From Prauserella marina (GTDB lineage: Bacteria; Actinomycetota; Actinomycetes; Mycobacteriales; Pseudonocardiaceae), in contig NZ_CP016353.1 of NCBI RefSeq assembly GCF_002240355.1, positions 4,937,001 to 5,001,000 of the forward strand: a stretch of 64,000 nt of DNA, given 5' to 3'. Below the pieces are notes generated by a model that was not told the DNA's origin, made no database searches, and was given only the letters and a program-made list of their open reading frames with translations. The position numbers were made by a program, and so were the translations under genes. Positions 3,686 through 42,429 of this stretch are shown in pieces. Positions within the stretch are counted from its first letter, which is position 1. The number at the start of each line of letters is the position of its first letter.

Positions 3686-4537
3686 GTGGGCGCCGAGGAG
3701 TTCGCGGTCCGCTTGCCACGCGGCGGGATGACGTTGCGTGGCAAGCGGACCGGCGACCCCGAAGGCGCACCCGTGTTGTGCCTGCACGGCTGGCTGGACA
3801 ATTGCGCGAGCTTCGACGCGCTCGCCGACCGGTTGCCCGAAACGGATCTGCTCGCGATCGACCTGCCGGGGCACGGCTTCTCCGACCCGATCACCTCGGC
3901 GACCTGCCAGTACGCCGACTACGTGGCCGCCGTGCTCGAACTGGCTCACACCCTTGGCTGGCAACGGTTCCGGCTGATCGGCCACTCACTCGGCGGCGCG
4001 CTCGCCTCGCTGATCGCCGGAACTCACCCCGGCGCGGTGGAGCGGCTCGTGCTCATCGACGCGATCGGGCCATTGCCGGCTCGGCCGGAAGACAGTGTCG
4101 CCGCGCTGGCCGGATACCTCACCGAATACCTGAAAGGTCACCGGTCCCCCGTCTACCGCACCCGCGCCCAGGCGGTGAAGGCCAGGGTGAAGCTGGCCGA
4201 CATCCTGCTCAGTACCGCCGAGGTGCTGGTGGAGCGCGACCTGCGCGAGGTCGAAGGCGGCTACACGTGGCGGCACGATCCCCGGCTCAAGAAGTCGTTG
4301 CCACGCGGTTTCACCGAGGAGCAGGTGCTGGCGTTCCTATCCGCGATCACCGCGCCCTCTCTGCTGGTGCGCGCGGAGCGGACGGCGTTGCGGGAGGATT
4401 TCTATCCGCGCCGGTTCGAGACCGTGCCCGGCCTGCGCGTGGTGACCCTGCCGGGAGGGCACCACCTGCACGTCGAGAATCCGGACCAGGTCGCCGGGGT
4501 GATCCGCGACTTCCTCGGGTTCAGTCCCGGATGGTGA
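3686..4537 (+). CDS. Alpha/beta hydrolase, candidate trans-acting release enzyme of the polyketide synthase
   Basis: A 283-residue alpha/beta-fold hydrolase. The oxyanion region LCLHGWLDN is near residue 31, DLPGHGFSD near 59, the nucleophile elbow GHSLGG places Ser at about 101, and GGHHLHVE near 258-263 supplies the catalytic His. There is no signal peptide or membrane segment. The GTG start immediately follows the TAG of the polyketide synthase (zero spacing), so the two are co-translated and a role in product release or editing is likely by context. Sequence alone does not give the substrate; serine-hydrolase-like esterases and epoxide hydrolases share this fold. The last 17 bases overlap the 3' end of the convergent hydratase gene. 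Confidence 0.85.
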   Translation: MGAEEFAVRLPRGGMTLRGKRTGDPEGAPVLCLHGWLDNCASFDALADRLPETDLLAIDLPGHGFSDPITSATCQYADYVAAVLELAHTLGWQRFRLIGHSLGGALASLIAGTHPGAVERLVLIDAIGPLPARPEDSVAALAGYLTEYLKGHRSPVYRTRAQAVKARVKLADILLSTAEVLVERDLREVEGGYTWRHDPRLKKSLPRGFTEEQVLAFLSAITAPSLLVRAERTALREDFYPRRFETVPGLRVVTLPGGHHLHVENPDQVAGVIRDFLGFSPGW

Positions 4538-37324: not shown

Positions 37325-38059
37325 TCAGGGCCGGAAGCCCGCCATGATGTCGCCGAATGCGGGATCATTGTCGACAACACCTCGCGACACATCATGCAGC
37401 CGCAGGCTGTGACTTCGCGCGTAGGCCCTGAGCGCGCCGAAGGCAGTGTCGACATCCGTGTCGTAACGTTCGGCGAGCACTCCCTTCGCTTGCTCGATGA
37501 GGATGCGACTGTTGAGTGCTGACTGAAGCTGCGAAGCAAGCGTCTCGCGATCTCTGGCCGTTCGTTCATGCAGGATCCCGATGGTCGCGATGTCGGCAAG
37601 CGCCTGCCCGATGCCCAGCAGCTCAGGATCGATACTGCCGGTTTCGGTGCCGAACAGGTTCAATGCGCCGATGACGTCGTTCCGCAATCGCAGCGGCAGC
37701 GCGTGGCTGGCCAGAAATCCTTCTGTTCGGGCGACGCTGACGAAACGAGGCCACCGTGAACTCAGGGACGCGAGGTCAGGTGCCTCGACCGGAAGACCGG
37801 TGCGGTAACAGTCGAGACTGGGGCCCTCGGAATTCTGCAGTTGAAACAGCTCCATCAACCGCGCTTGTTCGTTGGAAGCCGCGACCGTGTTGAGAGAGCC
37901 GTTGTGGTCTGCCAGTAACAGGCCGACCTCACCCACGCGCAAGGTCTCCTTACACCGCGAGGTCAGCATCTGCAGGAACGCGATCAGATCGAAGTCGTCG
38001 ACAAGCGTATCTGCCAACTCGACGAACGTACGAGCCACGCGTGCTTGCGGCAAAGTCAT
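37325..38059 (-). CDS. GAF-ANTAR RNA-binding antiterminator 1
   Basis: A 244-residue regulator. Residues 20-165 form a GAF domain (LTSRCKETLRVGEVGLLLAD, GPSLDCYRTGLPVEAPDL, ALPLRLRNDVIGALNLFG). Residues 185-240 form an ANTAR domain with the canonical LIEQAKGVLAERYDTDVDTAFGA-type helix and LRLHDVSRGVV. ANTAR proteins bind two-hairpin RNA motifs in leaders and prevent termination. The start overlaps the stop of the second GAF-ANTAR gene (ATGA), so both are made together and may form a heterodimer. Confidence 0.92.
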   Translation of the reverse strand: MTLPQARVARTFVELADTLVDDFDLIAFLQMLTSRCKETLRVGEVGLLLADHNGSLNTVAASNEQARLMELFQLQNSEGPSLDCYRTGLPVEAPDLASLSSRWPRFVSVARTEGFLASHALPLRLRNDVIGALNLFGTETGSIDPELLGIGQALADIATIGILHERTARDRETLASQLQSALNSRILIEQAKGVLAERYDTDVDTAFGALRAYARSHSLRLHDVSRGVVDNDPAFGDIMAGFRP

Positions 38060-38811
38060 TGGTCGCTCTCCGGCTCAGGCTCCGAGATGTGCTCGTCGTT
38101 GCTGGCGAACCGCAGTTTCCGCTGCACCACTGCCCGCGCCAGGTCAGTCAACCGGACGTTGTCGGCAAACGCGTGGGCACGCAGCCGAAGCAGAGCTTCC
38201 ACGACAGGTATTCCCAGTTGCACGGAGACCATGCCCGCTGCCTGGTGTACCTCGACGTTGCGCAGTACCGCGTCGTTGTCGGCCCCACCGACGCCGGAGC
38301 CGACCGTGATTCCGCCCCGGTGATCGAGAACGAGCAGGAGCGCCAGATCCGCCAGTGCGTACGCGTCGTTGAGTTCCCCTGCGGTGAGCTCACCCGTCGT
38401 AGCTCGGTACACGTTGAGAACACCGACCTGTGCGGCACCGACACCCACCGGGAAGCTGAACATGGCGCTAGTCCCGTGCTGGGCCGCAGCGGGTGCGAAC
38501 ACCGGCCACTTCGATACGCTCCGAAGGGAGCCGAGGTCAGGTGCGAAGACGGGCTGTCTCAACGACAAAACATCACAACCCGGCCCTTCGCCCACGGTCG
38601 CCTGCAACTCCTCTATCTCGTCGGCAGGTGAACCTGAGACCCATATCGGTTCGAAAATTCCCACCGTACCCGCCAACGCAAGACCTGCTCCACGGGCCGA
38701 CAGCGTTTCAACGCACGCGAGGCAGACGTGACGTGGGGATACCACTTCCCCCGCACGCTCGGCCTGCGCAGCGACAGTCCCCCACATTCTTGAGGCACGG
38801 TCACTGTCCAC
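38056..38811 (-). CDS. GAF-ANTAR RNA-binding antiterminator 2
   Basis: A 251-residue protein with the same build as its downstream neighbour. The GAF domain covers about 25-165 (CLACVETLSARGAGLALAG, GEGPGCDVLSLRQPVFAPDL, FSFPVGVGAAQVGVLNVYR). The C-terminal ANTAR domain is EVHQAAGMVSVQLGIPVVEA and LTDLARAVVQRKL. The GAF domain carries a Cys cluster (CLAC) at its start; whether it binds a cofactor is unknown. It is the first gene of the pair. Confidence 0.9.
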   Translation of the reverse strand: MDSDRASRMWGTVAAQAERAGEVVSPRHVCLACVETLSARGAGLALAGTVGIFEPIWVSGSPADEIEELQATVGEGPGCDVLSLRQPVFAPDLGSLRSVSKWPVFAPAAAQHGTSAMFSFPVGVGAAQVGVLNVYRATTGELTAGELNDAYALADLALLLVLDHRGGITVGSGVGGADNDAVLRNVEVHQAAGMVSVQLGIPVVEALLRLRAHAFADNVRLTDLARAVVQRKLRFASNDEHISEPEPESDQ

Positions 38812-38960: not shown

Positions 38961-40996
<2,036 letters not shown>

Positions 40997-42112
40997 ATGA
41001 CCGGAGTACGCGTCCTGGTCGGCACTCGCAAGGGCGCCTTCATATTGACCGCCGATGGCAAACGCCGACAGTGGGAGGTCAGCGGTCCGCATTTCGCGGG
41101 CTGGGAGATCTACCATCTGAAGGGGTCACCGGCCGCCCCGAACCGACTCTTCGCCTCCCAGTCAGGCGGCTGGTTCGGTCAGGTCATCCAACGTTCCGAC
41201 GATGGCGGCAAGAGCTGGAACCCAGTCGGCAATCAGTTCACCTACGAGGGTGAAACCGGAACGCATCAGTGGTATGACGGAACGCAACATCCCTGGGAGT
41301 TCGAGCGCGTCTGGCATCTTGAGCCTGCGATCGACGATCCGGACACGGTGTACGCGGGTGTCGAGGACGCGGCATTGTTCAAGACGGTCGACGGAGGCGC
41401 GACCTGGAACGAACTGCCCGGCCTGCGCCGCCATGAATCCGGACCGTCATGGCAGCCTGGCGCGGGCGGAATGTGCCTGCACACCATCATTCACGACCCC
41501 CGGAACACCGGGCGGATCTACGTCGCGATCTCGGCGGCGGGCGCGTTCCGGTCCGACGACGCAGGCACCACCTGGCGGCCGATCAACCGGGGCTTGCGCT
41601 CCGAGGGAATTCCCGACGAGGACGCCGAGGTCGGACACTGCGTGCACAACCTAGCGATCCACCCGACCCGCCCCGACGTCCTTTTCATGCAGAAACACTG
41701 GGATGTGATGCGCAGCGACGACGGTGGCGAGTCATGGCACGACATCGGCGGCAACCTGCCAACGGATTTCGGCTTCCCCATCGACGTGCACGCGCACGAG
41801 CCGGAAACCGTATACGTCGTGCCGATCAAGAGTGATTCCGAGCATTTCCCTCTCGACGGCAGGCTGCGAGTGTTTCGCAGCAAAGTGGGAGGAAACGAGT
41901 GGGAGCCGTTGACCGACGGCCTGCCCCAGCGCGACTGTTATGTGAACGTTCTACGGGACGCGATGGCGGTTGATTCGCTCGACGAATGCGGTGTGTATTT
42001 CGGTACGACCGGCGGCCAGGTGTACGCCTCGGCCGACGCCGGTGACACCTGGGCGCCCATCGTGCGGGACCTGCCAGCCGTCCTCTCGGTCGAAGTCCAG
42101 ACGGTCCCGTGA
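40997..42112 (+). CDS. BNR/sialidase-like beta-propeller protein
   Basis: A 371-residue cytoplasmic protein with no signal peptide. It has several Asp-box (BNR) repeats: [32 protein letters not shown] and SADAGDTW, each on a propeller blade. Catalytic residues of true sialidases (Arg triad with the FRIP motif) are not visible, so it is unlikely to be a sialidase despite the usual annotation. The start at ATG 40997 has a good GGGGAGA site; the longer reading to 40943 does not. Its stop overlaps the start of the MoaD-like gene (GTGA), which implies joint function. Confidence 0.88.
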
Positions 42113-42429
42113 GCCGCACGATCAAGGTGGCGTTGCCGACGCACCTGCGCACGTTGGCCCATATCTCCGATCGGCAGATCGAGCTCGATGTCGCGGGCGG
42201 GCCGACCGGCAAGGTCACCATGGCCGCCGTACTCGACGCGCTGGAAACCCGTTACCCAGCGCTGCGAGGCACCATCAGAGACCAGGTCACCCTCAAACGG
42301 AGAGCGTTCGTCCGTTTCTTCGCCTGCGAGGAAGACCTGTCACATGACCCGGCCGATCAGCCCCTTCCTGAGCCGGTGGCGGCCGGTACCGAACCACTTC
42401 TGATCGTCGGCGCGATGGCAGGCGGCTGA
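42109..42429 (+). CDS. MoaD/ThiS-like ubiquitin-fold protein with C-terminal Gly-Gly
   Basis: A 106-residue beta-grasp protein. It starts with [14 protein letters not shown], has an insertion with [14 protein letters not shown] as the main helix, and ends in [10 protein letters not shown]. The terminal Gly-Gly is what E1-like enzymes adenylate in MoaD, ThiS and SAMP-type proteins, for sulfur transfer or protein conjugation. No moaE, thiG or E1-like gene lies in the window. Translation is coupled by GTGA to the BNR-propeller gene, a pairing I believe recurs in actinobacteria. That makes a partner or target relation likely. Confidence 0.85.

Follow-up and report, generated by a model that had tools for sequence, protein, structure and literature searches.

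We find that a seven-bladed BNR-type beta-propeller and a small ubiquitin-like protein (Ubl) are encoded side by side in a widespread, conserved two-gene unit. The pair studied here lies in a stretch of 64,000 nucleotides of Prauserella marina (contig NZ_CP016353.1, positions 4,937,001 to 5,001,000), hereafter the window. That the two proteins form one device, as the first-pass annotation of this DNA had proposed, is well supported by linkage across phyla, by the occurrence of the pair in three gene arrangements and by a Gly-Gly motif in 135/136 assessable Ubls.

The understood bacterial carriers of ubiquitin-like fold each have a partner that defines their pathway, be it to thiamin, molybdopterin, cysteine or thiosugars. 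The propeller is a partner of wholly different fold, found in records from more than 12 phyla and in a well-studied species, where the known annotation reads merely ‘exo-alpha-sialidase’ next to ‘MoaD/ThiS family protein’. If the propeller accepts sulfur, pathway maps as they now stand would lack a sulfur-delivery route; should it read a tag, it would be a bacterial Ubl receptor. With the solved structure 3B7F at hand, its putative pocket is testable at once. In databases, the two genes are already annotated next to each other, and no description of the pair was found in the literature searched, outside which most subscription journals fell. Within PMC1949818, PMC1779556 and PMC2948915, the terms BNR, sialidase and WD40 do not occur, and the single ‘propeller’ stands in a figure legend of PMC1949818.

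Both open reading frames of the pair are real and lie on the forward strand. The propeller gene (40997..42112; ATG at 40997, stop at 42110-42112) encodes 371 residues, and the Ubl gene (42109..42429; GTG start, stop at 42427-42429) encodes a beta-grasp protein of 106 residues. The stop of the first overlaps the start of the second in the four bases GTGA (42109..42112, forward strand), an arrangement through which the two are probably translationally coupled. The Gly-Gly end initially reported for the Ubl is borne out by its translation, which finishes with GAMAGG, the two glycine codons occupying 42421..42426 of the same strand. By eye, a likely ribosome-binding site, AGGGGAG, is recognized 5' of the propeller ATG (40983..40989, forward strand). 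Since the upstream neighbor, a GAF-domain histidine kinase gene, is divergent and the downstream neighbor, a P450 gene, is convergent, the pair appears free-standing. Beside the kinase gene, we note two adjoining GAF-ANTAR genes (37325-38811), the second of which scores just below the Pfam cut-offs. The reported lack of a nearby moaE, thiG or E1 gene holds for the entire window (C1:4937001-5001000), with the E1 gene at 960298, moaE at 6099124 and thiG beside thiS at about 6152164. A phage or defence origin was dropped after PADLOC gave no match for either protein and one scan of viral contigs with the Ubl as query revealed no relative.

Conservation of the linkage was surveyed with a propeller-only scan of 84,980 species genomes, which returned 579 confirmed hits. 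The best 80 of these 579 (75-84% identity) were taken, and the loci are therefore biased to the window’s own propeller type. In 78 of the best 80 loci the Ubl lies 3' of the propeller on the same strand (the L036 Ubl being cut at the contig end), while the contigs of the other two, L052 and L071, end 11 and 7 bases past the propeller. Among the same best 80 of 579, the four-base overlap is seen in 72 of the 77 loci with placeable starts; the rest comprise one 7-base overlap and four gaps of 11, 41, 74 and 699 bases. According to their record titles, the best 80 of 579 loci fall into 16 phylum groups, including Actinomycetota, Acidobacteriota, Planctomycetota, Gemmatimonadota, Verrucomicrobiota, Chloroflexota, Nitrospirota, Bacteroidota and Pseudomonadota, most of the records being metagenome bins, for which the assigned phylum could be mistaken. 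Named strains occur in two phyla (e.g., Prauserella, Amycolatopsis and Micromonospora; Oscillochloris).

Using the Ubl as query against 41 genomes (the own genome and relatives), we located it at 17 sites in 16 genomes, always preceded by a propeller or the end of one, and 7/17 of these belong to a distant propeller type (39-42% propeller identity). Across 149 genomes of the phylum, a census yielded 40 propeller places above 260 bits. One of these runs into a contig end; of the 39 testable propellers, 33 have an adjacent Ubl and six lack one. Seven weaker places (95-119 bits) were excluded from this count. Sixteen of 37 propeller-hit plasmid records were examined, and 11 carry a linked Ubl and four do not (L021, L022, L188, L190); locus L198 was dropped because its propeller scored below 140 bits; its annotated neighbors include no MoaD/ThiS gene. 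Four loci overall are cut by contig ends (L036, L052, L071, L176), and two Ubls were counted twice (L009/L025 and L007/L097), the same-genus genome G003 (L009) and Prauserella endophytica (L025) having identical Ubls. Because the linkage is conserved across genomes, the pairing exceeds chance; this also answers the genomic ground, a missing linkage elsewhere, on which the first-pass proposal would have been refuted. A chance neighborhood devoid of functional meaning, in favor of which nothing was found, is refuted by the 78 linked loci among the best 80 (the other two being cut) together with the 33/39 linked census propellers, and we assign it practically no likelihood.

Clustering the flanks of the best 80 of 579 loci returned, on our reading, the pair itself, open reading frames on the opposite strand or in other frames, and families present in no more than 19 loci at scattered places. 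No constant extra family emerged, and an obligatory third gene was dropped. Two unusual layouts were seen: in L012 (310-1497), an apparent alcohol dehydrogenase coding sequence, recognized by eye, lies between propeller and Ubl, and in L073 (3897-6406) tandem propeller genes are followed by one Ubl, the second propeller having no Ubl of its own.

The pair occurs in three arrangements: propeller-Ubl, Ubl-propeller and a Ubl-propeller fusion. The Ubl lies downstream in the window type and further clades, and precedes the propeller in one actinobacterial clade as well as in those Proteobacteria that carry it, for example Mitsuaria, P. aeruginosa, Burkholderia, Paraburkholderia and Cupriavidus; the Mitsuaria and P. 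aeruginosa pairs are those annotated ‘MoaD/ThiS family protein’ and ‘exo-alpha-sialidase’. Ten propellers adjoin no Ubl, namely L021 (Streptomyces), L022, L188, L190 (Rhodobacterales), L169-L171 (one genus) and L172-L174 (one family). We note that the lone propeller gene of L188 adjoins egtB and egtD of ergothioneine synthesis. The existence of propellers without a Ubl, and the short branches of window-type propellers across phyla (median end branch 0.14), which fit the spread of a block, would agree with a propeller that is a lone small-molecule enzyme, the Ubl merely being co-inherited in a mobile two-gene block. This explanation appears improbable, however, as the linkage is found in three arrangements and in separate propeller clades, and the L012 Ubl has been retained despite the intervening coding sequence.

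Gly-Gly is exactly C-terminal in 122/136 assessable linked Ubls. In total, the 137 linked-Ubl loci comprise these 122 (among them L063 and L154, which end in Gly-Gly-Gly), nine extended Ubls, four fused ones, one cut by a contig end and one that bears no Gly-Gly. The extensions run 1-25 residues past Gly-Gly (L081, L104, L153, L156-L158, L160, L175, L177), consisting of Ser-Gln in both Litorilinea loci (L081, L104) and of 25 residues in L158. A protease may therefore be needed to expose the Gly-Gly of these proteins. The sole linked Ubl without Gly-Gly, in a Nonomuraea plasmid record (L187, about 4080-4395), ends in YVLPALA, reflecting either a natural loss or a sequence error. In four genomes (L149-L152), a single open frame encodes both Ubl and propeller, with a few to about 25 residues after the Gly-Gly joint. 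L152 has no usable start codon between the two, and L149 has none that leaves the first propeller strand whole; a GTG between Ubl and propeller in L150 and L151 makes a separate start possible there, so that fusion is certain for L152 and probably L149 alone. Mapping the fused state onto the propeller tree takes three changes, two of them forced by well-supported branches. Fusions and extensions together suggest either that the Ubl is processed or that its tail does not have to be free.

The BNR repeats recognized at first reading are confirmed by Pfam, with the BNR (45.8 bits) and Sortilin-Vps10 (46.7 bits) models both above cut-off. The propeller also appears to lack the sialidase catalytic residues: it has no RIP motif, and the Pfam search gave no sialidase hit even at E values as high as 0.1. 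Assignment as a sialidase (GH33) or glycosidase was rejected on the absent RIP motif and on BNR and Sortilin-Vps10 being the only Pfam families above cut-off, as was the NCBIfam ‘F510_1955 family glycosylhydrolase’, for which the propeller falls far below cut-off (73.6 vs 175 bits). Instead, the sequence matches that of PDB 3B7F (Reut_B4987, ‘putative glycosyl hydrolase with BNR repeats’) over residues 4-366 (E 5e-67), and the AlphaFold model (pLDDT 90) aligns with this structure at Z 49.6 over 356 residues (2.1 Å, 36% identity; Foldseek TM 0.90). By full-length sequence and fold, the window propeller is a 3B7F-type BNR propeller. Conserved His, Gln-x-His and Arg motifs are readable in the alignment of the two, and inspection by eye revealed no signal peptide on the propeller.

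Sixty-five propellers drawn from all arrangements were aligned. Twelve residues are identical in 65/65 (T10, W74, W106, W152, H162, S179, D188, H217, Q232, H234, W247 and R320 in window numbering), and K12 and R239 show one variant each. In the strand list of the model, W106, H162, H217 and R320 fall on the inner strand of a blade or immediately ahead of it, with K12 and H234 in turns between strands 2 and 3. From this strand order, by which residue proximity was read, we infer that the invariant residues probably gather at one face of the channel. Propeller enzymes tend to hold their active sites at one channel face. All 12 residues are also kept in the ten propellers that have no linked Ubl, and the site is therefore not merely a Ubl contact; its job may not need the Ubl.

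This persistence would suit a non-covalent module in which the Gly-Gly tail only docks on the propeller, itself an enzyme that the Ubl would regulate or stabilise. Foldseek matches to BNR-type propellers solved with bound peptides, YCF48/HCF136 (D1 peptide) and sortilin (neurotensin), point in the same direction, and the in-frame fusions could remain uncut. Nevertheless, we consider docking alone unlikely. A C-terminal Gly-Gly is a requirement for E1 activation, and its exact placement in 122/136 Ubls is more than plain docking would need. Moreover, YCF48/HCF136 and sortilin are distant from the window propeller (query TM 0.3-0.5, 10-17% identity), far below the 0.90 of 3B7F, and neither is known to be linked to a Ubl.

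The first-pass annotation had called the small protein MoaD/ThiS-like, which holds for its fold but is not supported by a family match of the protein itself. The window Ubl matches no Pfam family, the ThiS model included, and reaches 13.9 bits (E 0.06) with the NCBIfam SAMP1 model, against a cut-off of 60. We note that 8/22 linked Ubls of set A4 match Pfam ThiS at E 0.01. The AlphaFold model of the Ubl (pLDDT 91.6) was compared with solved structures by Foldseek and VIA-align, which placed SAMP1 (Z 12.3-12.4, the best with 87 residues aligned at 1.7 Å, and 10.8) and a Thermus MoaD-related protein (Z 12.0) ahead of CysO (Z 11.2-11.3; 11.0 when bound to BexX), Urm1 (Z 7.4-10.9, the highest in complex with Ahp1) and MoaD (Z 8-10). 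On this model, the Ubl has the beta-grasp fold of the MoaD/ThiS branch.

The own genome encodes three Pfam ThiS-family members besides the propeller-linked Ubl. Its CysO, at 5.52 Mb, sits beside a JAB protease and a CysM-like PLP enzyme of cysteine-synthase type, which is the CysO-CysM-Mec arrangement. Its ThiS, near 6152164, adjoins ThiG and a ThiO-like oxidase, and its MoaD follows MoaA, with MoaE 1.6 kb further and 1.1 Mb from the pair. We rejected the Ubl as MoaD (neither moaE nor any further moa gene linked; separate MoaA-MoaD locus), as ThiS (not linked to thiG or thiO; separate ThiS-ThiG locus at 6.15 Mb) and as CysO (not linked to cysM or Mec+; separate CysO-CysM-JAB locus at 5.52 Mb). 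Each of the three thus stands beside its own partner. The propeller-linked Ubl accordingly makes a fourth carrier, for which no partner other than the propeller is evident.

Comparison with known systems reveals likenesses and differences. With CysO-CysM-Mec+ of M. tuberculosis (PDB 3DWG, 3DWM), the pair shares the CysO fold at Z 11.2-11.3, a terminal AGG, a carrier gene beside its partner gene and an E1-rhodanese in the genome; in contrast, the Ubl is only 23% identical to the genome’s own CysO over 73 residues, and its partner is a propeller instead of a PLP enzyme, with CysO at a locus apart. In ThiS-ThiG and MoaD-MoaE, too, a beta-grasp carrier with Gly-Gly has a partner dedicated to it, but neither ThiG nor MoaE is linked to the Ubl, both having their own loci elsewhere; local alignment of the Ubl with the genome’s own MoaD gave no match. 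SAMP1 and Urm1 are among the best fold matches, although the Ubl remains far below the SAMP1 family cut-off. BexX reportedly borrows the known carrier CysO for thiosugar synthesis, and a 2014 Nature paper on BexX is reported to describe a carrier ‘MoaD2’, a possible counterpart of the Ubl. In the BexX/CysO complex (Amycolatopsis orientalis, PDB 4N6E), a carrier of near-equal fold is bound to a further enzyme, whereas the Ubl is a carrier of its own, encoded together with its propeller partner.

One clear E1, bearing a rhodanese domain, is encoded in the own genome, at 0.96 Mb as against 4.98 Mb for the pair. Mycobacterial MoeZR thiocarboxylates MoaD1, MoaD2 and CysO, as described in PMC3227635, and so provides a precedent for one E1 shared among carriers. 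An E1 was found in every pair-bearing genome queried (59/59: 27 + 31 + the own genome, for which the rhodanese domain was confirmed), and also in 11-12/14 control genomes and in 6/6 census genomes with a lone propeller. As E1 is present in most bacteria and in lone-propeller genomes, its presence is not discriminating, and we dropped it as evidence for the function of the pair. Three plasmid records contained no E1 (0/3), which concerns plasmid sequence only and has no bearing on the host genomes. Similarly, a JAB-type protease gene was found in 18/18 genomes, a sample drawn mostly from the extension/fusion clade and therefore providing no contrast, as well as in 8/14 controls; JAB was dropped as evidence for Ubl processing. 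In six genomes of one actinobacterial family, we observed a compact carrier-E1-JAB gene group apart from the propeller pair (G074:C126, G147:C129, G125:C16, G104:C111, G136:C18, G158:C6).

The best-fitting explanation, to which we give slightly less than an even chance, is that propeller and Ubl together make up a sulfur-carrier module of two proteins, in which the partner is of a new kind. It fits best because of the analogy to the partners in ThiS-ThiG, MoaD-MoaE and CysO-CysM, and because an E1-rhodanese could serve in trans; this part of the earlier proposal, in which the propeller partners a sulfur carrier, is retained as the leading one. The Ubl would be a ubiquitin-fold carrier of the CysO/SAMP1 type, whose Gly-Gly end may be adenylated and converted to a thiocarboxylate by a MoeZ-like E1-rhodanese encoded elsewhere. 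A putative conserved pocket at one mouth of the central channel (K12, W106, W152, H162, H217, Q232, H234, R320) could take up the tail of the Ubl, and the propeller, as dedicated partner, might pass the sulfur to a further acceptor. The propeller would in this way take the place held by ThiG, MoaE or CysM in the genome’s three other carrier systems.

Against a sulfur carrier stand the 13 loci in which Gly-Gly is not at the encoded end (nine extensions, four fusions), the two Gly-Gly-Gly ends and the one Ubl lacking the motif. Residues after Gly-Gly, fusions and a Gly-Gly-Gly end are unusual for known sulfur carriers. The nine extensions and four fusions resemble the protease-dependent precursors of ubiquitin, which speaks for protein tagging, the other function first envisaged for the pair: the Ubl would be conjugated to lysines in the manner of SAMP1 or Urm1, and the propeller would be the substrate receptor or main target. 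SAMP1 (Z 12.4) and the Urm1-Ahp1 complex (Z 10.9) being among the nearest folds, and the JAB-type protease gene in 18/18 genomes, are consistent with such tagging; on the other hand, no E1 lies near the pair, flank clustering revealed no third gene in most of the best 80 of 579 loci, and JAB is also found in 8/14 controls, the 18 genomes coming mostly from the extension/fusion clade. We regard tagging as rather unlikely. Somewhat more readily, though still tentatively, we can imagine that the pair stands for a new ubiquitin-fold class, spanning more than 12 phyla and including P. aeruginosa PA1356, in which the Gly-Gly tail is read by a propeller instead of E1, E2, E3 or any known enzyme that accepts sulfur, and in some lineages fused or extended precursors have to be cut after Gly-Gly like eukaryotic ubiquitin.

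The surroundings of some pairs offer a functional hint, as their flanks contain DUF6596 sigma factors, YCII proteins, glyoxalase-fold proteins and DUF899. Using Pfam models, we found 6/28 genomes in which a DUF6596 sigma gene is no more than 10 kb from the pair, where 0.25 would be expected (Poisson P 3e-7). These 6/28 genomes also have a YCII gene no more than 10 kb away (0.26 expected), and the two tests are not mutually independent. The 28 genomes are those of 27 loci among the best 80 of 579, plus the own genome. Flank HMMs matched 11/27 pair flanks as compared with 0/27 E1 flanks and 0/13 flanks of weaker ThiF hits; these models were built from the loci they scored, and we therefore rely on the Pfam-based proximity test. 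DUF6596, supported by TPR matches and a review, is taken here to mark the ECF42 group. YCII genes are found near ECF42 genes according to a review, and passages of PMC6180224 describe a YCII-related gene beside an ECF42 gene and name neither BNR nor MoaD nor sialidase. The P. aeruginosa pair has sigma factor, VOC and YciI genes within 4 kb. The window’s own pair has no ECF42-YCII neighbor, the nearest DUF6596 gene being about 0.88 Mb off. In part of the lineages, the ECF42-YCII neighborhood suggests a module used under stress.

Finally, the P. aeruginosa propeller of locus L024 (3992-5098) corresponds to PA1356, its N-terminus matching the residues printed for PA1356 in PMC6085387. That paper lists these first residues in a table of candidate Tat signals. 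We note that, in the 3B7F-type family, the same residues form the first propeller strand.
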